This document shows positions 234 to 18,442 of a stretch of 64,000 nt of DNA, piece by piece (position 1 is the first letter of the stretch; each line of letters starts with the position of its first letter). The stretch is taken from contig JAJVIH010000047.1 in NCBI GenBank assembly GCA_022072125.1, positions 1 to 64,000 on the forward strand, read 5' to 3'. Position numbers and translations under genes: made by a program. The notes below the pieces were generated by a model. The model was not told the origin of the DNA. It ran no database searches and worked only from the letters and a program-made list of their open reading frames with translations. This DNA is from Myxococcota bacterium (GTDB taxonomy: Bacteria; Myxococcota; JAJVIH01).

Positions 234-1325
234 TTACGGACGGGGACGGCCGAAGGACAGAATGACAACGCCGTCGGCGATGCCTTCGATATTCAGTTCA
301 CCGGCCTTCATCCACTTGCCGCCGGAATTGCCGCCGGCGACGACCTTCATCTGGCCCGCGCCGATGTCAATCGCCGCGTAGGTCGAATCCTTGTTGGAAG
401 CGCTGCGGGTCGGATCCGGCTGCGGGCTGTCGGTGTTGCCGTTGAAGTAGGTCAGCTTGGTGGGACGCTTGGTCATGCCGACGATGGCGTTCTCCAAGCG
501 GTTGAACGCGCAGTCACGGATGGTGCCCGCCACCGCGCCGTTGCCCTTCTTCACGCCCGAGGGCACGCCGGCGACGATCGGGATGAGCTTGTAGGTGCTC
601 TCCGCGATGATGTTCGCGTCGGTCCACTCGTTGTTCAGCTTGAGGTCCGCGGCCTTGTCAGCCGGGAAGTACATGTTGAACTGACGGGTGGTCACGAAAC
701 CGGCGCCCTTGGTCTCGAAAACCAGCAGGGTGTTGGTCGGCACGCCCTTGACCGCGTATTTGCCCTTGTTGCCGCATTTGTCGTCGGCGTCCAGGGTGGC
801 GGTGACGGTGGTGATCTTCTCCAGATCATCCCAGTTCTTGCCCGCCTCGTACTTGCGGATTTCCAGGGTCACGCCGTCGGTGTTGGCGTCCAGGCCGAAT
901 ACGTTGATGCAGCCTTCCGCGTCCGCCTTGTCGGGCCCCGCGGGCTTGGCCGGCTTGTTTTCGTTGCAGGCCAGATCGACCGGCTGGCCGTCCTCGCGCT
1001 TGAGGTCGGCGTCCGCCTTGCCCAGGCACACGCTGAGGGTGCAGGTTTCTCCCGCCTGGCAGTCGCCATCCGACTTGCAGCCGTCAACCGGGGGAGGAGG
1101 TTCGGTGTCTCCACCGCCGCCGCCATCCGCGGGAGGCGCGGCGTCCGATCCGCCGCCGGTGTCCGCGGCTCCACCGCCATCCGCGGGAACGGAGGCGTCG
1201 GTGCGCGTTGCGGAACCGTCGCTGGTGGTTCCTGCATCGGTTTTCGAGTCGCTGCTGCACGCGGCGATAGCCAGAACCGCCGCAATCGCGAACAGTTCCG
1301 CTGCGAACTTGGTCGTCTTCAACAT
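234..1325 (-). CDS. Lipoprotein with Asp/Gly-rich stalk and carboxypeptidase-regulatory-like end
   Basis: The 363-residue product has a lipoprotein signal peptide with lipobox LAIAAC, so Cys23 would be acylated. Next comes a low-complexity Asp/Gly/Ala/Pro/Thr stalk to about residue 80, then a short Cys-rich stretch (CKSDGDCQAGETC). The C-terminal two thirds is beta-rich; its last ~100 residues (GNGAVAGTIRDCAFNRLENA onward) resemble the carboxypeptidase-regulatory-like fold common in myxobacterial surface lipoproteins, though this is a weak resemblance. An AAGGAG-like ribosome site lies about 8 nt before the ATG. The gene is monocistronic, bounded downstream by two terminators. The function is unknown; a cell-surface role is inferred from the lipobox and stalk. 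Confidence 0.85.
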   Translation of the reverse strand: MLKTTKFAAELFAIAAVLAIAACSSDSKTDAGTTSDGSATRTDASVPADGGGAADTGGGSDAAPPADGGGGGDTEPPPPVDGCKSDGDCQAGETCTLSVCLGKADADLKREDGQPVDLACNENKPAKPAGPDKADAEGCINVFGLDANTDGVTLEIRKYEAGKNWDDLEKITTVTATLDADDKCGNKGKYAVKGVPTNTLLVFETKGAGFVTTRQFNMYFPADKAADLKLNNEWTDANIIAESTYKLIPIVAGVPSGVKKGNGAVAGTIRDCAFNRLENAIVGMTKRPTKLTYFNGNTDSPQPDPTRSASNKDSTYAAIDIGAGQMKVVAGGNSGGKWMKAGELNIEGIADGVVILSFGRPRP

Positions 1326-3434: not shown

Positions 3435-4088
3435 CTAGGCGCCGTGCAGGCTCATGCGCAACTGCGGCGTGAAAAACTCCTGGGCCTTTTTGTTGGAGTC
3501 CAGCCCCACCACCAGTTCCTGCAGCAGGCCGGAGTGCAGGTCATAGACCACGCCATGCAGCAACGGCCGCGGCCCTTTATCCCACGCCTGCTGGACCACG
3601 GGGGTTTGCGACAGGTTGTAGACCTGCTCCAGCACGTTCAACTCCACAATCCGCTTGAAGCGCTCCTCGTCGCCGCCCATGCCTTCGAGCGCGTGCCGGT
3701 TCAGGCGGATGATGTTGCGGATGCCGCCGATCCAGTAGTCCACCAGGCCGTGAAACGGCTCGGCCATGGCGGCCCTGACGCCGCCGCATCCATAGTGCCC
3801 GCAAACAATCACATGCTTGATGTCCAGCACTTCCACGCCGTACTGCAAGACCGAGAGCACGTTGAGGTCCGCCGGCTGAACCTGGTTGGCGATATTCCGG
3901 TGAACGAACATCTCCCCCGGCTCCGTTCCGGTGATCACCTCGGCGGGGGCGCGGCTGTCGGAACATCCAATGAAGAGGAAGGTGGGCTGTTGCCCTTTCG
4001 ACAGCTTGTCGAAATACCCCGGATCGCTTTCAACGATCTTTTTCACCCACTCGCGGTTGTTGGCCATGATGCGGCGGTAATTTTCCAT
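3435..4088 (-). CDS. Beta-class carbonic anhydrase
   Basis: This 217-residue cytosolic zinc enzyme interconverts CO2 and bicarbonate. The beta-class signature is complete: Cys42-x-Asp44-x-Arg46 in GCSDSRAP, and His98-x-x-Cys101 in HYGCGG. The length is typical. It starts 10 nt after the SulP transporter stop, so the two are almost certainly co-transcribed. Pairing of SulP transporters with carbonic anhydrase is a known arrangement for inorganic-carbon uptake, which argues that the neighbouring transporter carries bicarbonate. Confidence 0.95.
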   Translation of the reverse strand: MENYRRIMANNREWVKKIVESDPGYFDKLSKGQQPTFLFIGCSDSRAPAEVITGTEPGEMFVHRNIANQVQPADLNVLSVLQYGVEVLDIKHVIVCGHYGCGGVRAAMAEPFHGLVDYWIGGIRNIIRLNRHALEGMGGDEERFKRIVELNVLEQVYNLSQTPVVQQAWDKGPRPLLHGVVYDLHSGLLQELVVGLDSNKKAQEFFTPQLRMSLHGA

Positions 4089-4097
4089 GTTCCCTCG

Positions 4098-5702
4098 TCA
4101 GTGTCCGGAAGGTTTGCCGCCGGGCAGCGACGGCACTCCGACCAGGCGCAGGTCCACGCCGCGTTCTTTCATCAGCCCGGCGTAGGTATGGATGAGTTCC
4201 AGAATGTCGTAGTCAATATGCGCGGTGCGGCGGGCGTCCAGTTCGACCCGGCTGCCTGGCGGAAACGATTCCAGCATGTTGGCCAAGGCGGCCTTGTTCA
4301 GAAAGCTCAGGTGAACCGGCAGGATGAAACGCTGCAACACGCTGCCCGGGGGACCAATCGGAATCAGCACGGGCGAACGGGAATGCCGCAACAGGATGAC
4401 GCCGCCGCCGATAAACAGGCCAATCAGGATGCCCACCAGCAAATCGGTCAGCAGAATCGAAACAATGGTCAGCGTGAACGGCAGCCAGTGCCACCACCCG
4501 ATGCGGGCCATCTCCCGGTAGAGCGAAGGCGGGGACAGCTTGAAGCCGGTGTGAATGAGAATCGCGGCGAGGGCGGACAGGGGAATCAGGTTGAGCGCGC
4601 CGGGGATCAGCAACACGAACACGAGCAGCCAGATTCCGTGCAGCACGGCCGACAGCCGCGTCCGGCCGCCTGCGTTCACATTGGCGGAACTGCGCACAAT
4701 CACGCCGGTGAGCGGCAAACCGCCCAGCAGTCCGGCGAGGAAATTGCCCGCGCCCTGGGCGACAAGCTCCCGGCTGGGCGGCGAGGTGCGTTTCCATGGA
4801 TCCAGGCGGTCGGTCGCTTCCAGGCTCAACAGCGACTCCAGGCTCGCGACCAGGCCAATCGTAAACGCCGCGCTCCAGACTTTCGGATTGGCGAACGCGC
4901 TGAAATCCGGGCGCACCACCGCGCCGAAAAACCCAAGAGGGCCGCCGCTTGAAGGCATGGCGACCAGATGTTCCGGCTGAACCATCAGATCGGATCCGAG
5001 GGCGCGGAACAGGGCGTTGAGCCCAATGCCCAGCAACACGACAAACAACCCGGCGGGAAAACGCCGGATTTTCGCGCTGGGAATTTTCGGCCACAGAAAC
5101 AACAACGCCAGCGACAGCAGACCAATGATGGTGGCGCCGGCATGGGTGGCGCCGAATGCATGGGCGATGGCGGTGAAGGTGTTCTCGTGGTTTTCCTGGT
5201 CAAACGCGGTGTCGCCAAAATAATCGGCGTCGTATCCGACCAGATGCACGGCCTGTTTGAGAATCAGGGTCAGTCCGATGGCGGCCAGCATGCCGCGCAT
5301 GACATCGGTGGGGAAATAGAACTTGATGACGCCGGCCTTCAACAGCCCCATCACGATCTGGAAAACCCCCGCCAGGGCGACGGCGGGAAGAAAAATCTCG
5401 AATCCTCCGAGTTCGGAGATGGATGCATAGACAATGGTGACAAGGCCGGCCGCGGGTCCGCTCACCATGAGCTGGGACCCGCTTAGGAAGGGAACGACCA
5501 GGCCGCCAATGATGCCCGCCACCAGGCCGGAAGTCAGCGGCGCGCCGGATGCATGGGCGATGCCCAGGCAGAGCGGCAACGCCACCAGCGCCACAACGAT
5601 GGAGGCGGCGGCGTCTTCGCGGGCGTATGCGAACCATCCTCCAGCCACGGGGGGGCTGGATACCTCGGCGATGGCGCGCGCGGAAGGGGCGGTCACACTC
5701 AT
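4098..5702 (-). CDS. SulP-family anion transporter, probably bicarbonate
   Basis: The 534-residue inner-membrane protein has the SulP fold with many hydrophobic spans from about residue 30 to 425. It is followed by a short STAS-like cytoplasmic domain at about 450-525 (VELDARRTAHIDYDILELI). SulP proteins move sulfate, bicarbonate or other small anions. The carbonic anhydrase gene 10 nt downstream favours bicarbonate (BicA-like), but the cysT/cysW genes farther on leave sulfate open. A TTGACA element lies upstream. The start ATG at 5702 fits the N-terminal length of the family. Confidence 0.9.
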   Translation of the reverse strand: MSVTAPSARAIAEVSSPPVAGGWFAYAREDAAASIVVALVALPLCLGIAHASGAPLTSGLVAGIIGGLVVPFLSGSQLMVSGPAAGLVTIVYASISELGGFEIFLPAVALAGVFQIVMGLLKAGVIKFYFPTDVMRGMLAAIGLTLILKQAVHLVGYDADYFGDTAFDQENHENTFTAIAHAFGATHAGATIIGLLSLALLFLWPKIPSAKIRRFPAGLFVVLLGIGLNALFRALGSDLMVQPEHLVAMPSSGGPLGFFGAVVRPDFSAFANPKVWSAAFTIGLVASLESLLSLEATDRLDPWKRTSPPSRELVAQGAGNFLAGLLGGLPLTGVIVRSSANVNAGGRTRLSAVLHGIWLLVFVLLIPGALNLIPLSALAAILIHTGFKLSPPSLYREMARIGWWHWLPFTLTIVSILLTDLLVGILIGLFIGGGVILLRHSRSPVLIPIGPPGSVLQRFILPVHLSFLNKAALANMLESFPPGSRVELDARRTAHIDYDILELIHTYAGLMKERGVDLRLVGVPSLPGGKPSGH

Positions 5703-6184: not shown

Positions 6185-6202
6185 GAAACCGCGTCCGGTT
6201 TC
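6185..6202 (-). terminator. Possible terminator overlapping the stop codon of the 1037-residue gene
   Basis: On the minus strand GAAACCG and CGGTTTC form a 7-bp stem with a 4-nt loop (6185-6191 with 6196-6202), followed by a pyrimidine-rich CTTCCTTTC. The stem includes part of the stop codon. Confidence 0.4.
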
Positions 6203-9200
6203 AGGCGCCCATTTTCAGGCGGTTGAGGGTATTGACCCGTTCGTTGGCGCCCGAATCGGACAGGGTCGGGTCCTTGGCCGGCAGCGAGGTGATTTGCAGG
6301 GACGGATTGGCCCGCACTTCCTGAACCCAGGTCAGCACATGGTGGTGCAGCATGGCCTTGGTGAACGGGTCATCCGCCCGCAGCAACTCCCAGACATGGG
6401 TGGGGGTTTTGGCCTCGAAGCCGCGGAAGACCATGCGTCCGGCGTTGTGAAACACCAGCGGCGCGAGCCGGGGATCATCCCGGCGCAGGGAGACAACCAG
6501 TTTCAGATCCTTGCGGAGGAAAAAAAACTTCTCGCGGATTTCCGGCGCCAGTTTTTCCCATTGAATTTCCCTGTACATATGCAGATAGAGGGCGACGGAC
6601 TCGCGGATGAACTGTTGCAGACCCTCCTCTGAAATCGCCTCGCCCTGGTTGTAGATGTCGGTTTGCAGCTCCAGCATGTCGGCGTGCCCGCCGCCGCCGC
6701 GCAGGGCGGTTTTCAGGTCCGCGTGGATGCGCTCCCTCACGCCGTCCGCGAACTGGCGGAGCAGCGCCTCGTCGGGGGCGGCCTGCAGGGAAGCCAGCTT
6801 GCTTTGGAGATCGCTGGGCAGGTTCAGGCTGAACGCCTGTCCGACATAACAGCGGAAGGGGAGCGTCAGCTTGTGGTTGCCGGTGCGGTTCTGGGTTTCC
6901 TTCAACAGCGCGTTGATGCGATCCATGACCGATGCGGCGCGGCCGGTGCCGCGCGCGGCTTCGTTGATCTTTTCCCCGATGGCCACGTTCACCTTGCCGA
7001 ACAGGGGGTCGAACATGCTCACCATCTCGGCGGCGGCGCCGAAACTGATGAACAGCCCCGACTCGATGCCAAAGCCCTTGATGGCCTTGATCTCCTGTTC
7101 GCGCAGGTCGTCAATGATCCGGAGTTGCGATTCAAACTGGACCCTCCGGGTATCGCAGTCCCGCAGAATGGCGTTCGCGTTTTCACTGAGAGTGGCCGCC
7201 CACTGCTGTATCAACGGCGCGGGGACGGCGTCTTGCAAAATGCCATCCACCTCCTGGTATTGCACCGCCAGTTTGCGCGCCTCGGCCTGCTTGAATTCGG
7301 CGCGGTGCTGGTACTCCATGGCCTTGGCGGGATCGGTTTCGGCCTGCGCCGCCTTCCGCATCAACGAACATTCCGCGAAGATCGACCGGCCCTTCTCCTG
7401 ATAATAGGCCTTGATGGCGGCGCCCAGTTCGTGAACCGGCATCTGGGAAAACCGGTCCGCCTCCGCCTGCGCCGCGCCCGCGGTGGCGTAGAGTTCGGCG
7501 AGGTCCCTTTCCAGCCTGGCCTTGCGCGCGTCAAATTCCTGGTTGACCCGCTTGATGGCCTCGTCGTCGGAGACCAGCGTGGAGCTCTGGTTCAGGCGTT
7601 CTTCATACTGGCGGGCGATCTGCTGGATATCGCGCGCCAGGTGGATCAGCGAAGTCACCGACCCCGCGAACAGGGCGGCGTCGCCGATCAGGTTGTTGAG
7701 TTGCACGTTGGGCGGACCGCCCGGCGTGGCGGAAGCGGCGTATTTCTTGGCCGCGGCGATGATGGGCTCGTAGAAGTTGGTTTTCAGGAAATCGGCCATC
7801 ACCACTTCCTTGGCCCGGAAGGTGCGCTTGGTGAAGCCTTTCAGGTCAATAAACAACTGGCCGGAGGTCTTCTCTTCCGCCTTTTTCAGCATCGGCAGGT
7901 TGTCATCGGCGATGCGGTACAGGCGCCCGCTTTCATATTCCTGGATGATCGCCTGAAGCCCGACGGTCTGCCGGCGGTTTTCGTAATGCTCCAGGCTGGA
8001 GACCGCGAGGCCGGTCATGTCCTGATCCAGCATGAACAGGACGCCGCGCTGGACGTGGCGCTCGATCAGTTCATCCTCGTTCGGACCCTTGCGGACCTTG
8101 AACAGGCCGCGGCTGTAGCTTTCCAGGAAGTCTTCCAGTTCGGAGAGCAGGACGCCGCGCTGGGCTTCAAAAATCTTGCCTTCCGCCTTCTCCCGTTCGG
8201 ACTTCACGAATTCGTGGAATTTGCCGAAATCCTTTCCTTCCAGCAGAAGTCCGGCGATCAGGTCCGATTCCTTCAGCAGGTCCGAGAGCTTGCGGTTGAA
8301 GTCCCACTGGAAATCGTTGAAGGACAGAAAGGGCAGCGCGCAATCACGAAATCCCGCCACGTGGGCGTCGCGGATGAATCCGGAGAACTCCTTTTTGCGC
8401 CCCTGGATCCCGCTCGCGGCGGCGCCAATGGCCTTGTCCACCTCGCGCGGGTTGATCTTCAGTTCGCGCAGCAGCTTTTCCAGCGACTCAACCGCTTCCT
8501 CCGAAATTCCATAGGGGTTGAGATCAAGCTGAACAATCTTGCGCCGGATGGCGACCAGCGTGGGGGGGGTGGTCACGGCGAACAGTTCGGCCTCCGTCTG
8601 GTTGATATCCAGCGGGGCGCGCCGCGCGGTCAGGGTGGTGGTGATGTCAATGGCCGCCGCTTCCAGCAGGGTCTGCAGGCAGTATCCCAGCGTCCGCTCG
8701 ACCTTTTCGTAGCTGAGGCCCTTGATGGGAACCCGCGAGTTGGCCTCCTTGTGCTGGGCCATCAGCTTCACCATGCTGATGTGGGCCAGATAGAGGTAGG
8801 GCGCGCCATCCTGCGTGGTGACCATCTGATTGGCCACGTGCGCGTAGAGTTTCTTGACCTCGGTCAGGAACGCCTTGCCCTGGCCTTCCGGACCCAGCCA
8901 GCAGTCCAGAATGGCGGCGTCCACGTGCGGATCGCCCGCGAGGATGCGCCGCGCCGCGTGGGCTTCCGCGGATTCTCCCGTGAAGTAGCGCAGTTCCATG
9001 GTGGCGGGCTTCAGCTTGGTCCTGAACGCCCAGGGGTATTTTTGCTCCAGGCTGTCGGGGGCGCCGTTGCGGCGGCCCAGCAACAGCACAAGCTGGGTGA
9101 CCACCCGCTGGCCCAGTTCCTCGTATTTGTCGGCGAGCGAATAGGGGATGCGCGCGTCCGCCAGGGATTCGCCGAGCCGGAAGGGAAACGCATCGGCGAA

Positions 9201-9314
9201 CTGGTTGAACAGATCGGCGAGGGAGATATTCCGGCCCGCGCAGAGCTTGCTCACCCGGCGATAGTAATCCAGGCGATCACTCGCTTTATGATCCGTGGCT
9301 GCCGCGAACTTCAT
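6201..9314 (-). CDS. Large protein with an interrupted class III nucleotide-cyclase-like domain
   Basis: The 1037-residue product has no signal peptide or membrane span. Residues 486-551 and 745-790 together read like a class III adenylate/guanylate cyclase. FIDLKGFT (488-495) matches the first metal-Asp strand, with Asp490. LIGDAALFAG (542-551) matches the second metal-Asp hairpin, with Asp545. GFGIESGLF (747-755) matches the RIGIHTG strand. IGEKINEAARG (779-789) matches IGDxVNxAAR, with Asn784 and Arg788 at the transition-state spacing. About 150 extra helical residues, partly coiled-coil, interrupt the domain between LIGDA and GIESG. The usual substrate-selecting position seven before Asn784 is Val777, which is atypical. 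The flanking ~480 N-terminal and ~250 C-terminal residues are unrecognised and helix-rich. The gene overlaps the preceding CAP-domain gene by 4 nt. Cyclase activity is unproven; a degenerate signalling domain is equally possible. Confidence 0.75.
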   Translation of the reverse strand: MKFAAATDHKASDRLDYYRRVSKLCAGRNISLADLFNQFADAFPFRLGESLADARIPYSLADKYEELGQRVVTQLVLLLGRRNGAPDSLEQKYPWAFRTKLKPATMELRYFTGESAEAHAARRILAGDPHVDAAILDCWLGPEGQGKAFLTEVKKLYAHVANQMVTTQDGAPYLYLAHISMVKLMAQHKEANSRVPIKGLSYEKVERTLGYCLQTLLEAAAIDITTTLTARRAPLDINQTEAELFAVTTPPTLVAIRRKIVQLDLNPYGISEEAVESLEKLLRELKINPREVDKAIGAAASGIQGRKKEFSGFIRDAHVAGFRDCALPFLSFNDFQWDFNRKLSDLLKESDLIAGLLLEGKDFGKFHEFVKSEREKAEGKIFEAQRGVLLSELEDFLESYSRGLFKVRKGPNEDELIERHVQRGVLFMLDQDMTGLAVSSLEHYENRRQTVGLQAIIQEYESGRLYRIADDNLPMLKKAEEKTSGQLFIDLKGFTKRTFRAKEVVMADFLKTNFYEPIIAAAKKYAASATPGGPPNVQLNNLIGDAALFAGSVTSLIHLARDIQQIARQYEERLNQSSTLVSDDEAIKRVNQEFDARKARLERDLAELYATAGAAQAEADRFSQMPVHELGAAIKAYYQEKGRSIFAECSLMRKAAQAETDPAKAMEYQHRAEFKQAEARKLAVQYQEVDGILQDAVPAPLIQQWAATLSENANAILRDCDTRRVQFESQLRIIDDLREQEIKAIKGFGIESGLFISFGAAAEMVSMFDPLFGKVNVAIGEKINEAARGTGRAASVMDRINALLKETQNRTGNHKLTLPFRCYVGQAFSLNLPSDLQSKLASLQAAPDEALLRQFADGVRERIHADLKTALRGGGGHADMLELQTDIYNQGEAISEEGLQQFIRESVALYLHMYREIQWEKLAPEIREKFFFLRKDLKLVVSLRRDDPRLAPLVFHNAGRMVFRGFEAKTPTHVWELLRADDPFTKAMLHHHVLTWVQEVRANPSLQITSLPAKDPTLSDSGANERVNTLNRLKMGA

Positions 9315-10975
9315 TTGGCGGTGCTCCCGAATATCAGGACAATCCAGTACAGACTGGATCCCTGACCTGGACCTTCTCCATACGCCACGCCTGCTCCGAT
9401 ACGGTTGAACGATTGGGACGAGAGATTCTTCGAGGACAGGACTTTTTTCAAATCTGGAGAGACATGGATGTCAATAGACGCATTATGAATCACTTTGGCT
9501 TCCTCGAAGACCTCGTCGAACCAGTGCGGCGGCACCCTCACCTGCCCCGGTTCCGGGTGCAGTTCGCGCAACCGCCCGGCGAAACGCGCGGCCAGATTGC
9601 TCAGCACGGCGGACTCCTCCAGCGGAACCAGCCCGCGGGAGCGCCGCGCATCATCCACCATGCGGAAAATCGCCTCGCGGGCCTTGCCGGCGGAGGCCTG
9701 GCCGTCGCCGGGTTGAATCGCCACGAAGGTCACGAGATAAAACTCCCGCCCGCCTTCCGGCGGGACCAGCCCGACCCCGGCCTTGTTCATGCGGTCATCC
9801 AGCAACAGGGCGCGATGCCCGGGCGACTCCAGAATGCCGGCGAGGGCGTTTTCCAGGGTGGGATGGCGGGCGACGTTTTCCCCCGCGAAACGGAAGCCGA
9901 TTTTCTCCTCGCGCAGCCGCGCGGCCAGATCGCCGGTGACGGGGGACTGGTGCCCGAAAAAGCCCTGCTTCGCCATGTCCGCGCAATGGGCGCGCGCCAC
10001 TTGATCCAGCAGCGGATCGCGGTGGAAGGCCGGCAGGCCATACATGCGGCGGAAGCGGTTGACCGCTTCAAACAGGCGGTCCTCCGGGGGGAGCGGGGTT
10101 TCGCCGCCGCCATCCTCCTTCAGAAGCTGGCTGGCCGGAGAATCCCTTGGCGGAGCCTCATCCGCGCCCACCGCCACGGGGAAGAGGTTGGTGACCGTCA
10201 GCCCGCCGGAGGTCCGCGCCACCAGTTCGATGCGGTGAACGCCCCGCGCCGGCAATTCAACATCGGCGGTGAAAACGCGGCCGTTGATCTCCGCCGCCGC
10301 CATCCGCTCGACCGAACCATCGGGGCGGGTGACAAACACCGAGGGATCCGACACCGACAGCCCCATCTGGCCATGCAGCCGCACTGAACCCGGTTCCGGC
10401 AGGCGGCGGGGCAGGGGGCGCAGGCGGATGTATTCGCGCATGAACAGGACGGCGACCAGCGTCACCCCATCGCGGTTGACCGCGGCGCCCGAGGCGTAGC
10501 CGCGTTTTTCCAGGCTTTTGTCCCGGCTTTCCATCCACTGGCCGGCGACGCCCTGGAACAAACCGGGCCGGGTATGGGCGACGATCATGGGCAAGATGTC
10601 GGCATGGGACAGCCCCCAGCGCCAGCAGATCTGCTGCAACAGGGCGTCGGGCGCCTCCGGCGTGATCAGGCGCCCGTCTTCCACGCGAACCTCTTCCAGC
10701 AGGGCTTCCGCGAGCGCGCGCGCCGCCGGCCGGATCCGTTCATCCAGCGCCGCGCCGCCGGTTTTCAGCCGGACAAGATGGGACTGGATGGCCGCATCGG
10801 CGGCCCGTTCGGCCTTGCTGGCGGCCACCCGGGCGGCGGGGTCTTCATAACGGGCGGGCGGTTTGATTTCTGGAGGCTGCGCCCGCGCCGCCGCGGCCAG
10901 AGACAACAGAATGGCCGCTCCCAGGCCGATGAGGGCGGGCGTACGAAGCAGGCGGACTGGCGGAATCAAACCCAT
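9311..10975 (-). CDS. Exported protein with tandem CAP/SCP domains
   Basis: The 554-residue product has an N-terminal signal peptide or anchor (hydrophobic residues 14-31, then ARAQ). Residues 190-270 look like a beta-sandwich. Residues 298-420 form a clear CAP (SCP/PR-1) domain with the usual His and Glu positions: His342 in FFGHQSP, Glu366 in AGENVA and His387 in ESPGHR. A second, more degenerate CAP-like unit spans about 434-552 (IFRMVDDARRSRGLVPL ... NRIGAGVAYGEG). Bacterial CAP proteins are secreted and their roles are mostly unknown. Its stop overlaps the start of the 1037-residue cyclase-like gene (ATGA-type, 9311-9314), so the two are translationally coupled and probably act together. 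Confidence 0.85.
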   Translation of the reverse strand: MGLIPPVRLLRTPALIGLGAAILLSLAAAARAQPPEIKPPARYEDPAARVAASKAERAADAAIQSHLVRLKTGGAALDERIRPAARALAEALLEEVRVEDGRLITPEAPDALLQQICWRWGLSHADILPMIVAHTRPGLFQGVAGQWMESRDKSLEKRGYASGAAVNRDGVTLVAVLFMREYIRLRPLPRRLPEPGSVRLHGQMGLSVSDPSVFVTRPDGSVERMAAAEINGRVFTADVELPARGVHRIELVARTSGGLTVTNLFPVAVGADEAPPRDSPASQLLKEDGGGETPLPPEDRLFEAVNRFRRMYGLPAFHRDPLLDQVARAHCADMAKQGFFGHQSPVTGDLAARLREEKIGFRFAGENVARHPTLENALAGILESPGHRALLLDDRMNKAGVGLVPPEGGREFYLVTFVAIQPGDGQASAGKAREAIFRMVDDARRSRGLVPLEESAVLSNLAARFAGRLRELHPEPGQVRVPPHWFDEVFEEAKVIHNASIDIHVSPDLKKVLSSKNLSSQSFNRIGAGVAYGEGPGQGSSLYWIVLIFGSTAK

Positions 10976-14474: not shown

Positions 14475-15323
14475 CTATTTCTTCGCTTCCCAGGTTCCGT
14501 CCGCCTTGGCCTTCTTGACCAGGGTCCCGCCGCCAGTCTGGACGATATTCCATTTGCCGTTCTTGAATTCAATGGTGTTCGGGTCGTAATCTCCGGTGAT
14601 ATCGCCCTCGAAATTGTATGGAATGCCGAAGACGCGGACCGATCCATTGAGGATCTTGCCCTTGAAGGTCACGCAATCAAACTCGCCGGTGAGTTCCGCC
14701 TGGAATTTCGAGTTGGCGGTCGCCACGCCGCTCAGCTTGCCGCCGGTGACGCTGCATTTCCCGGTCGAGGGATCTTCCACCAGGTTGAACTCCAGCGTGC
14801 CGTCAATCTTCGTGTCGTTGCTGGAGCTGATGTACAGAATCCCCTTGAACCCGCCCTTGTACAGGCCAATCAGGCATTGCGGGCCGCTTCCCGTGGGCTG
14901 GCTGGGAAAATTGCTGCCGCAGACGCCGGAGGAAATCACCGGTCCCGTATCCGGGTTGGGAACGGGAGTCACATCCTCTCCGGCGTCCGGACCACTGTCT
15001 TCCGGCGGGGTTCCCGCGTCCGGATCAACCGCGGTATCCGGATCGCCGCTGGAATCCTCCGCGGAGCCGCCGTCATCCTCCGTGGCGGCGTCCTTTTTGG
15101 CGTCCTGAAGCGGATTGCCGGACTCCGGACCCGCATCCCCGGAAGTTCCCGCATCATCCGGAGATTCCTGCCCCGCGCCAGTATCCATGACGCCAGCCGC
15201 GCCGGTATCCGGCGTCTTCTTGCCGCCGCCCGCATCGGGCCCCACCACGACAAATCCCTCGCCGCCGCATGCAGCCGCCAGGCTGGCCAGAACCGCCGCA
15301 ATCCAGAATATCCGGTTTTTCAT
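14475..15323 (-). CDS. Lipoprotein with long Asp/Gly/Ala-rich stalk
   Basis: The 282-residue product has a lipobox ending in LAAAC, with Cys19 as the acylated residue. A low-complexity stalk of Asp, Gly, Ala, Pro and Thr runs to about residue 130. A compact beta-rich C-terminal domain of ~150 residues follows, with four Cys that could form two disulfides (VCGSNF, QCLIGLY, GKCSVTG, FDCVTFKG). No family was recognised. The stalk composition matches the other lipoproteins of this window. It is transcribed divergently from the Ig/propeller lipoprotein. Confidence 0.82.
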   Translation of the reverse strand: MKNRIFWIAAVLASLAAACGGEGFVVVGPDAGGGKKTPDTGAAGVMDTGAGQESPDDAGTSGDAGPESGNPLQDAKKDAATEDDGGSAEDSSGDPDTAVDPDAGTPPEDSGPDAGEDVTPVPNPDTGPVISSGVCGSNFPSQPTGSGPQCLIGLYKGGFKGILYISSSNDTKIDGTLEFNLVEDPSTGKCSVTGGKLSGVATANSKFQAELTGEFDCVTFKGKILNGSVRVFGIPYNFEGDITGDYDPNTIEFKNGKWNIVQTGGGTLVKKAKADGTWEAKK

Positions 15324-15616: not shown

Positions 15617-18442
15617 ATGACCATTCGCGCGCTGGCATTGTTCCTGGCCATTTCTGGAGTTCTGTCCCTGGGTGGCTGTGGCGGTGAAGCCACGGCGCCG
15701 CCGCCCGGCTCTCCGCCGGAAGAAGACGCTGGAGAAGGTCCCGGGGAGGACGCGGGTGAAAGCGACGCCAAGCCATCGGACGCGGGCGCCAAGGACGCCG
15801 CGAAAGACTCCGGGACCGGCAATGATGGCGGCAAGGACGCAGGCGCCGAAGACAAGGGGATCCCCGATACCGCGGAAGAAGACACCGCCGCCCCGGACAC
15901 CGGCAGACCTGACGCCGATGTTCCCGATACCGGTCCGGCGGACACCGCCCCGCCCGACAACGCCCCCGCCGACGTGGGCCCGCCGGACACCGGAACTCCC
16001 GACACCGCGCCGGCGGATACAGGCCCCGCCGATACGGGCTCCCAGGACACCGGAGCCACCACGCCGGGAAAAGGCGTTCCTCGTGTCACCATTGAGTTGC
16101 CGCGCCCGCGGTCATTCATCAAACGCGGCGCCGAACTGGATTTCCGCGGAACCGCCGAGGATGACGAAGACGGCATCATCACCGAGAATTTCCGCTACCG
16201 CTGGTCTTCCAGCGTGGATGGGCCCATCGGCATTGGCCGCGTGCTGCAAAAGGGCACGCTGGCGACCGTGGGCAGGCATACCATCACCCTGACGGTCGAG
16301 GACAGCGCGGGCAACAAGGGATCGGCTTCGGTGGATGTCACCGTCAGCGACAAGGTTCCGCCGGTGGTCAATATCATCAAGCCCGCGGATGGTTCGTTCG
16401 TGAAAGCGGGCGACGAGGTGAAATTCGAGGCCGACGTGACCGATCCCGAGGACCCCACGGCGGGCAGCGGCGCCTTTGGATATGAATGGATATCCTCCCT
16501 GGGAGACCAGTTGCCGGTGGGCAATGGCGTGATCGGCCGGCTGACCAGCATCGGCGTTCACACCATCACCCTGACGGTGACCAACAGCCGCGACAAACGC
16601 CAGGGCAGCGGATTCATCAGTCTGGAAGTGGGCACGGATTATCCGCCGGATGTCTATATCACCGCCCCGAAGGAGAACGCCCGCTTCTACTCAGGCGAGG
16701 AAGCCGCGCTGGAAGGCTTGGTCAAGGACGCCGAGGACGGCGACAACCCAGCCAATTACACCTACGTCTGGAGTTCCGACAAGGAAGGCGAACTGGGCAA
16801 ACAGCGCGTGCTCAAGGCGCCGCTCAAGACCGTTGGGGTCCAGACCCTGACCTTCAGCGTGACCGACGCCGCCAACCGCAAGCGGTCGAAAAGCATCAAG
16901 GTGGAGGTGCTGAACAACACGGCGCCCACCGCCAAGATCCTCAAACCGAAGGATGGGTCGCGGGTCAACCAGGGCGAGCCGGTGTTTTTTGAAGGCGAGG
17001 CCTCCGATCCGGAAGAGGGGCCGCTCAGCGGCGGCGCGCTCAAGTGGATCAGCGACAAGGCCGGTGAACTGGGCCGCGGGGCCACGGTCAGCGTGGCCAA
17101 CCTGCCCGCCGGCGTGAACAACATCAGCTTCGAGGCGACCGACCGCGGCAAGCTGAGCGCCCGCGCCCGCGTGGCGGTGGTCATCAACGGCGCGCCGGTG
17201 GTGAAGATCGTCAACCCGGCGGAGCCGAAGAAGGAAATCACGGAAGGACAAAACGTGGCCCTGTCGGGAACCGTTTCCGACGACGTGGATCAGGGCCTGA
17301 AGGGATCGTGGTTCACTTCCACCGCCGAGGCGCCCATCAAGGCGGGCGACAACAACGCCAGCTACAACAATGTCCCCGCCGGCAAACACCGCATCCTGTT
17401 CGAAGCGGTGGACAAGGAAAACGCGGTGGGCCGGGCGTATCTGGATGTCATCGCCAAAAAAGCCACGGGACAGCTCTACGAAACCTATTCCGGACTGCTG
17501 CAATCGGCCAGCTACCGGGATCACGCTTCGTGGACCAACGGCCAGATCCTGCTGGCCACGGACCAGGGCCTGTTCGAATTCAATCCGAACAACAGCAAGT
17601 TCTTCCTGAGCCAATTCAGCAACAGCGATCCGAAATCCATCAATTCCAACAACGTGCTGGCGATTGATGCGGTGGTGAAGAGCGGTCCGCTCGCCGGACC
17701 CTCGCTGTTCGTGGCGGGAACCTCGCAGGGCGCCTGGGTCTGCAAGGTCGCGGGAGATGGAACCTCCGATTGCGCCCGCATCTCGCAGGGCGCCGGTTCG
17801 CTGCCCAACAACGAGGTCCGGGCGGTGCGCGCGCGCGGCGATGAATTTCTCGCCGGAACGCCGGATGGGCTCGCGCTCATCAACGGCGCCCAGCAGAAAG
17901 TCACCAAAACCTGGACCAAGGCCCAGGGGCTCATCAGCAACACCGTCACCTCGCTGGCGCTGGACCCCCAGAACAACGCCTGGATCGGCACCGACGCGGG
18001 GCTGTGCAAGCTGACCTTCGCCGGCGCCGGGCAGCCGGAAAAATTCGACTGCTTCAGTTCGACCAGCACCAGCAACGGGTTGCCCTCGGACAAGATCAAC
18101 GCGGTGGCCCACGCCAACAACACGGTGTGGGTGGCCACGGATGAAGGCCTGACCCGTTATGATCCCGCGGCGGCGAACAACAAGTGGATGACCTTCACCA
18201 AGGACCTTCACGGCCTCCCCTCGGACAAAATCCGTTACCTGGAATCCGGTCCCGAGAAGGAAGTCTGGGCGGCCACCCCCTTCGGCGCCGCCCGCGTCAT
18301 GTTTGTCAACGGACGCCTGCACATGACCGTGTTCAACCGGGACGACCTCGCCAACGAAAACATCTTCATGATCCGGGCGGTGTCGGCCACCACCAAATGG
18401 TTCGGCACGGACAAGGGGCTCATCCGCTACAACGGCAAATAG
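15617..18442 (+). CDS. Lipoprotein with five Ig-like domains and a beta-propeller
   Basis: The 941-residue product has a lipobox (LSLGGC, Cys21), then an Asp/Gly/Pro/Thr stalk with PDTG/ADTG repeats to about residue 150. Five consecutive PKD/Ig-like modules of ~90 residues follow to about 620; each opens with a PxVxIxxP-type strand and closes with an HTITLTV-like strand. The C-terminal ~320 residues are a propeller with 'two-component regulator propeller'-like blades (NNEVRAVRARGDEFLAGTPD, TVTSLALDPQNNAWIGTDAG, DKIRYLESGPEKEVWAATPF). No kinase or output domain follows. It is probably anchored in the outer membrane and exposed to bind a ligand or partner. A strong terminator follows the stop. 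Confidence 0.88.
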   Translation: MTIRALALFLAISGVLSLGGCGGEATAPPPGSPPEEDAGEGPGEDAGESDAKPSDAGAKDAAKDSGTGNDGGKDAGAEDKGIPDTAEEDTAAPDTGRPDADVPDTGPADTAPPDNAPADVGPPDTGTPDTAPADTGPADTGSQDTGATTPGKGVPRVTIELPRPRSFIKRGAELDFRGTAEDDEDGIITENFRYRWSSSVDGPIGIGRVLQKGTLATVGRHTITLTVEDSAGNKGSASVDVTVSDKVPPVVNIIKPADGSFVKAGDEVKFEADVTDPEDPTAGSGAFGYEWISSLGDQLPVGNGVIGRLTSIGVHTITLTVTNSRDKRQGSGFISLEVGTDYPPDVYITAPKENARFYSGEEAALEGLVKDAEDGDNPANYTYVWSSDKEGELGKQRVLKAPLKTVGVQTLTFSVTDAANRKRSKSIKVEVLNNTAPTAKILKPKDGSRVNQGEPVFFEGEASDPEEGPLSGGALKWISDKAGELGRGATVSVANLPAGVNNISFEATDRGKLSARARVAVVINGAPVVKIVNPAEPKKEITEGQNVALSGTVSDDVDQGLKGSWFTSTAEAPIKAGDNNASYNNVPAGKHRILFEAVDKENAVGRAYLDVIAKKATGQLYETYSGLLQSASYRDHASWTNGQILLATDQGLFEFNPNNSKFFLSQFSNSDPKSINSNNVLAIDAVVKSGPLAGPSLFVAGTSQGAWVCKVAGDGTSDCARISQGAGSLPNNEVRAVRARGDEFLAGTPDGLALINGAQQKVTKTWTKAQGLISNTVTSLALDPQNNAWIGTDAGLCKLTFAGAGQPEKFDCFSSTSTSNGLPSDKINAVAHANNTVWVATDEGLTRYDPAAANNKWMTFTKDLHGLPSDKIRYLESGPEKEVWAATPFGAARVMFVNGRLHMTVFNRDDLANENIFMIRAVSATTKWFGTDKGLIRYNGK

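Follow-up and report, generated by a model that had tools for sequence, protein, structure and literature searches.

We propose that the gene at positions 6201–9314 (minus strand) of a 64,000-nucleotide stretch of a Myxococcota bacterium genome (assembly GCA_022072125.1, contig JAJVIH010000047.1, positions 1 to 64,000; hereafter the window) probably encodes a soluble, catalytically competent class III-type nucleotidyl cyclase of a divergent family that public profile libraries miss, and that the enzyme would act as a homodimer regulated by its helical parts. The open frame of 1037 residues places a helical N-terminal region ahead of the cyclase-type domain, and no membrane-like segment is present in the protein (best 19-residue hydropathy mean 1.5). 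The original prediction, made from the sequence alone, had offered two readings, a cyclase of new architecture and a cyclase fold that now serves for binding. It is supported by the cyclase core found in a structural model and by a profile match, so that neither of the two outcomes named as refuting it (a model lacking the core, or no profile match even with the insert taken out) occurred. Judged by the model, the protein belongs to a divergent family within the class III cyclase-domain superfamily and is not a proven cyclase.

A class III cyclase fold interrupted by three inserts

In the AlphaFold2 model, built from 67 family members (mean pLDDT 89.8, pTM 0.76), residues 480–982 form a complete class III cyclase homology domain, including the ferredoxin-like cyclase core for which a structure prediction had been suggested as a check. 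VIA-align comparison revealed that the best 50 entries were all class III adenylyl or guanylyl cyclases (Z 14.8–16.9), among them human soluble guanylyl cyclase beta (Z 16.9, 177 residues, rmsd 2.7), P. aeruginosa CyaB (Z 16.8, 180 of 195 residues, rmsd 3.0, model residues 479–982) and CyaC (Z 16.6). In Foldseek, the top PDB match was the mycobacterial adenylyl cyclase Rv1625c (E 2.8e-3, probability 0.96), and many further class III cyclases were found at probability 1.00; none reached E 0.001, as expected for a domain that is split by an insert. GGDEF was considered as the nearest kind of domain and was set aside in view of the composition of the best 50 VIA-align entries. Rows for WzzB, ClyA and Tc-toxin in the fold tables are matches of long helices and were disregarded.

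Since the structural alignments span model residues 479–982, the cyclase domain extends well past residue 790, where it had been thought to end, and it does so with three inserts. Four segments make up the domain, all of them encoded, like the other features of this gene, on the minus strand. The first, at residues 480–577 (7584..7877), comprises beta1, alpha1–2, the beta2–beta3 hairpin and alpha3, and is defined by the model together with a profile match (E 4.8e-8). The second, at residues 748–792 (6939..7073), holds beta4, the arm, beta5 and alpha4, and the third, at residues 879–905 (6600..6680), holds beta6 and alpha5; both follow from the model and the fold comparison. The final hairpin (GRMVFRGFE...VWELL) forms the fourth segment, at residues 952–982 (6369..6461), as placed by the model and by fold and profile comparison. 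The strand GIESG (749–753) had been named as the third element of the motif series; the model has a strand at 751–760, in which it is LFISFG (754–759) that corresponds to the GIHxG strand of class III cyclases.

The computation thus shows a class III fold at residues 480–982 that is interrupted three times. Insert 1 occupies residues 578–747 (7074..7583) in the alpha3–beta4 loop, where the model places long helices (583–623, 627–658, 662–692 and 699–745) in a stretch whose length varies across the alignment and the tree; the helical insert of ~150 residues expected from the sequence is therefore real, and with about 170 residues it is somewhat longer than was thought. Insert 2, seen in the model, lies between alpha4 and beta6 at residues 793–878 (6681..6938). 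Insert 3, at approximately residues 906–951 (6462..6599), was placed by setting the strands of the model against the class III pattern.

The fold was also compared at the level of sequence profiles with a set of 30 ordinary class III cyclases, picked from related genomes with PF00211. Family residues 478–577 matched this set with E 4.8e-8 and a score of 49.2, compared with 19.1 for the best of 60 column-shuffled templates, and in this alignment D490 and D545 pair with the two metal-binding Asp of class III cyclases. For the whole core the score was 52.1; the best of 60 shuffles gave 22.0, and the reversed template gave 13.3. It is extremely improbable that a helical or coiled-coil structural protein resembles a cyclase here by chance, as one might gather from the weak coiled-coil models that were the only Pfam matches of the single sequence; such a resemblance is contradicted by the Z 16.9 fold match over the full domain, the significant profile match and the invariance of the catalytic residues.

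Catalytic and base-selecting residues

Conservation was read from an alignment of 76 rows, consisting of the window protein and 75 related loci, in which L109 and L114 are incomplete; L109 is split across two open reading frames, and its N-terminal half alone entered the alignment. Asp490 (7845..7847), the putative first metal-binding Asp (Me1), is D in all 74 rows with a letter, and Asp545 (7680..7682), the putative second (Me2), is likewise D in 74 of 74. On alpha4, Asn784 (6963..6965) corresponds to the transition-state or ribose Asn and Arg788 (6951..6953) to the transition-state Arg; both are unchanged in 75 of 75 rows with a letter. Codon checks placed D490, D545, V777, N784 and R788 exactly where they had been predicted, and each is invariant in every relative covering it. 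Of 217 core positions in a 67-row alignment, 24 are invariant, and the chance of finding four named positions all within this set is 1.2e-4. Arg964 (6423..6425) stands near the last hairpin, at the place of the class III phosphate-binding Lys, with K in 51 rows, R in 19, and C, A and V in one each of 73, so that 70 of 73 rows have a basic residue here. Two Zymogenus-type relatives (L047 and L050) have Ala or Val at position 964 and L071 has Cys, and these three may be altered or inactive members.

Class III cyclases have a substrate-specifying residue pair, Lys/Asp or Lys/Thr for ATP and Glu/Cys or Glu/Gly for GTP, which is variable within the class and not decisive. At the first of these positions, where adenylyl cyclases have Lys, the window protein has Asn541 (7692..7694; N in 71 and S in 3 of 74 rows), four residues before Asp545. 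This change had been overlooked in the original prediction. At the second position, Asp or Thr in adenylyl cyclases, it has Val777 (6984..6986), which is V in 75 of 75 rows with a letter. Of the 30 ordinary cyclases, 29 have Lys and one has Arg four residues ahead of the second Asp; seven residues ahead of the Asn, 23 have Thr, six have Asp and one has Gly. By this comparison, the Asn/Val pair departs clearly from ordinary cyclases. The spacings equal those of Rv1625c, being 4 from the first base position to Me2, 7 from the second base position to the Asn, and 4 from the Asn to the Arg (PMC4174876; this and the other papers cited here are drawn on through excerpts). Mutation of the base-selecting pair in Ma1120 shifts substrate preference (PMC4215837), and pyrimidine cyclases use other residues at these positions (PMC11224242).

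That the metal and transition-state residues are fully conserved speaks for an active cyclase rather than a domain that only binds. Two base-selecting residues unlike those of known cyclases and large inserts beside the active site would fit with a class III domain that is no longer catalytic and instead binds a nucleotide or cyclic nucleotide in a regulatory or receptor role. Some loss of catalytic residues would be expected in such a domain; instead, the Asp pair and the Asn/Arg pair are invariant at ~21–31% identity while the insert and the N-terminal region vary freely, and we regard binding without catalysis as unlikely.

The unusual pair also raises the question of a pyrimidine cyclase functionally related to the anti-phage Pycsar PycC, which shares with the window protein a class III fold and altered base-reading residues. 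Pycsar cyclases, too, replace the purine-reading hairpin residues (F100, R142 and Q144 in EaPycC), and Asn reads uracil in other uridine-binding proteins (PMC11224242). The residues themselves are different, however, and Asn/Val is not among the Pycsar pairs reported in the excerpts of PMC11224242; the window family additionally has the N-terminal helical region and the inserts. PADLOC matched no family among the four members tested, and among the tight neighbours, which vary between loci and were not all scanned for effector domains, we noticed no partner resembling PycTM or PycTIR; in the window, the neighbouring genes encode a CAP-domain protein, a SulP transporter and a carbonic anhydrase. 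A Pycsar-type function is highly unlikely in our estimate.

Several observations weigh against an active class III cyclase, the reading that we prefer. Taken alone, residues 745–812 scored 15.8 and residues 879–982 scored 20.4, compared with 19.5 and 26.5 in column shuffles, and because neither part rises above its shuffles, we base the second half of the domain on the structural model and the conserved motifs. The weak alignment of residues 745–812 moreover prefers another register, in which N784 and R788 are not the catalytic pair. The two Asp are 53–57 residues apart, compared with 44–45 in the 30 ordinary cyclases (~9–13 more), and Asn541/Val777 fit no known substrate. Finally, PF00211 does not detect the gene at 6201–9314; the model marks six places in the window's genome with this gene not among them, it was not reported for the window protein in the Pfam search, and it is absent from the 25 families listed of 54 for 59 members. 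The profile check that had been suggested therefore came out in two ways, with the core matching class III profiles and the library model passing over the gene; a PF00211 match is a matter of library recognition, not a biological definition. As to the register, strand 773–779 of the model directly precedes helix 781–789, and the alternative needs a helix at the place of this strand. V777, N784 and R788 are spaced by 7 and 4, as are D365, N372 and R376 of Rv1625c, which we take to lie on beta5–alpha4. In that enzyme, these three are the second base position, the Asn and the Arg (PMC4174876). The strand and helix positions of the model favour the register with N784 and R788 as the catalytic pair.

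Family distribution and variation of the inserts

When the single protein was used as a query, relatives were found in 15 of 58 near genomes, and a scan of genome contigs yielded no confirmed relative; the same type of scan with a family alignment then gave 75 related loci in named genomes. With the family profile, 57 of the phylum's 195 genomes had a relative, a count in which some rows are fragments, as did 38 of 90 genera, usually as one copy per genome. The open frame is thus a genuine gene of a conserved family. The 75 loci come mostly from metagenome-assembled genomes of Deltaproteobacteria and Myxococcota, and they include two Archangium isolates (L091 and L094) and Anaeromyxobacter. 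The relatives are ~21–31% identical to the window protein. Partial rows L057, L105, L109 and L114 (4 of 76) were removed before the tree and the core profile were made, and partial loci L051, L057, L084, L087, L088, L105, L109, L110 and L114 (9 of 75) before alignment A3.

Searches of public libraries returned little. For the single protein, Pfam (E up to 10) gave only weak coiled-coil models (best E 0.024), and NCBIfam gave no useful match. PDB sequences gave nothing useful with the single protein, and with the family profile the best hits were helical proteins at E 0.045; a plasmid search gave no useful match. A description of the family was not found in an open literature library, which mostly lacks subscription papers. 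In comparison with bacterial class III adenylyl cyclases such as Rv1625c, CyaC, CyaB and Ma1120, the family shares the fold over residues 480–982, the two metal Asp, the Asn/Arg pair and a basic residue at the phosphate Lys; it differs by the three inserts, by Asn/Val in place of Lys/Asp (or Lys/Thr), and in not being detected by PF00211. The DUF2652 cyclase-like proteins, also bacterial, likewise diverge from class III cyclases and have changed substrate residues; they are described as single-domain proteins of ~250 residues with the Asn replaced in the mycobacterial set (PMC4886424); the window protein, with 1037 residues, had no match to the DUF2652 Pfam family at E up to 10.

The length between D545 and G753, which contains insert 1, falls into distinct classes among 72 rows, with 40–54 residues in seven, 82–90 in six, 100–115 in 47 and 179–207 in 12. 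In the insert-poor relative L104, the distance from Me2 to the Asn is 72 residues, which equals that of Rv1625c (72; PMC4174876) and lies within the 70–78 of the 30 ordinary cyclases. A quick tree with many weak forks, calculated without the insert columns, requires 12 changes to account for the length classes and six for the short class. This suggests that the helical module has repeatedly appeared, disappeared or changed in size alongside catalytic residues that stayed the same. Since relatives nearly without the insert keep every catalytic residue, it would not be needed for the core chemistry. Insert 2 varies as well, with 43–101 residues between R792 and N889 across the family, the half-row L109 excepted. 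Extra helices in the alpha3–beta4 loop also occur in the trypanosome receptor adenylyl cyclases GRESAG4.1 and GRESAG4.3, where a delta-subdomain of 36 residues with two helices is thought to be an allosteric site (PMC6027212). Unlike in these enzymes, the insert here has up to ~165 residues, as much as four or five times that size, its length has changed repeatedly, and the window protein is soluble and without a receptor part.

N-terminal region, gene neighbourhood and signalling context

Both flanks of the predicted domain had been called unrecognised. The C-terminal flank turned out to be largely the rest of the cyclase domain, and the N-terminal 470 residues (7905..9314) are indeed without a recognised fold. 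A separate model of this all-helical region has a pLDDT of 92.2 and a pTM of 0.92. With the region alone, Foldseek gave a best E of 0.2, with probability of at most 0.25 among the matches listed, and VIA gave a best Z of 7.5 over 92 residues, below the level of unrelated helical models; such weak matches do not show that the fold is new. Few residues are invariant (G48, P57, R323, G463 and Y466), and we presume that the region is sensory or regulatory.

Immediately upstream lies a gene for a CAP/SCP-domain protein (9311..10975, minus strand; PF00188, E 1.5e-16), which looks exported and has an N-terminal signal-like segment. Its end overlaps the start of the cyclase-like gene by four bases (ATGA), which suggests that both are on one transcript. 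A related CAP gene is tightly upstream in only three of the 75 related loci (L040, L042 and L045), and no conserved partner gene was found in the neighbourhoods of the related loci. By the look of their sequences, neighbours in other locus groups may be purQ-like, MTAP-like, radical-SAM-like or glnA/glnB-like genes. What we take to be a gene for a cyclic nucleotide monophosphate (cNMP)-binding-like protein of 216 aa lies convergently, ~755–772 bases downstream, at L093:10021-10671, L096:6627-7277 and L098:7762-8412 (minus strand).

Elsewhere in the window, a SulP-type anion transporter gene (PF00916) adjoins a beta-type carbonic anhydrase gene (PF00484) at 3435–5702 (minus strand), a likely bicarbonate uptake pair. 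Lipoprotein-like proteins with long Asp/Thr/Gly/Pro-rich (PDTG-type) linkers after the signal region are encoded at 14475–15323 (minus strand), 15617–18442 (plus strand) and 234–1325 (minus strand), and the one of 941 aa among them has further repeat-like domains.

The window's genome contains 21 places with a cNMP-binding domain and six ordinary class III domains, and cyclic-nucleotide signalling is therefore very likely present. In class III enzymes, two copies pair head to tail and share their active sites. By analogy, two chains of the window protein would pair head to tail, and each active site would take Asp490 and Asp545 with two metal ions from one chain. The other chain would supply Asn784, Arg788 and Arg964, which may orient the ribose and the phosphates, together with the base pocket, and a nucleoside triphosphate would be closed to a 3',5'-cyclic monophosphate. 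Residues 541 and 777 are predicted to face the base, and because Asn541/Val777 replaces Lys/Asp or Glu/Cys, the base may be read differently from ATP and GTP cyclases. On a loop beside the dimer arm, the helical insert could pass on a signal or serve as a docking site for a partner, and the N-terminal helices and the alpha3–beta4 insert may set the dimer geometry or receive an activating signal.

It is possible, though doubtful, that the family makes neither cAMP nor cGMP but another cyclic nucleotide, such as a cyclic pyrimidine or the cyclised form of a modified nucleotide, with a base pocket read by Asn/Val and gated by a length-changing helical module inside the catalytic domain. Such an enzyme would represent a second-messenger branch of Myxococcota and allied bacteria unseen by profile libraries. 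The Asn/Val base pocket matches no substrate code known to us, and the product can be assayed directly. Natural catalytic domains with and without the large helical insert form a ready-made system for studying the regulatory role of this loop. Since the libraries searched hold no model of a family that occurs in 57 of the phylum's 195 genomes, these bacteria probably have more cyclic-nucleotide signalling than has been counted.

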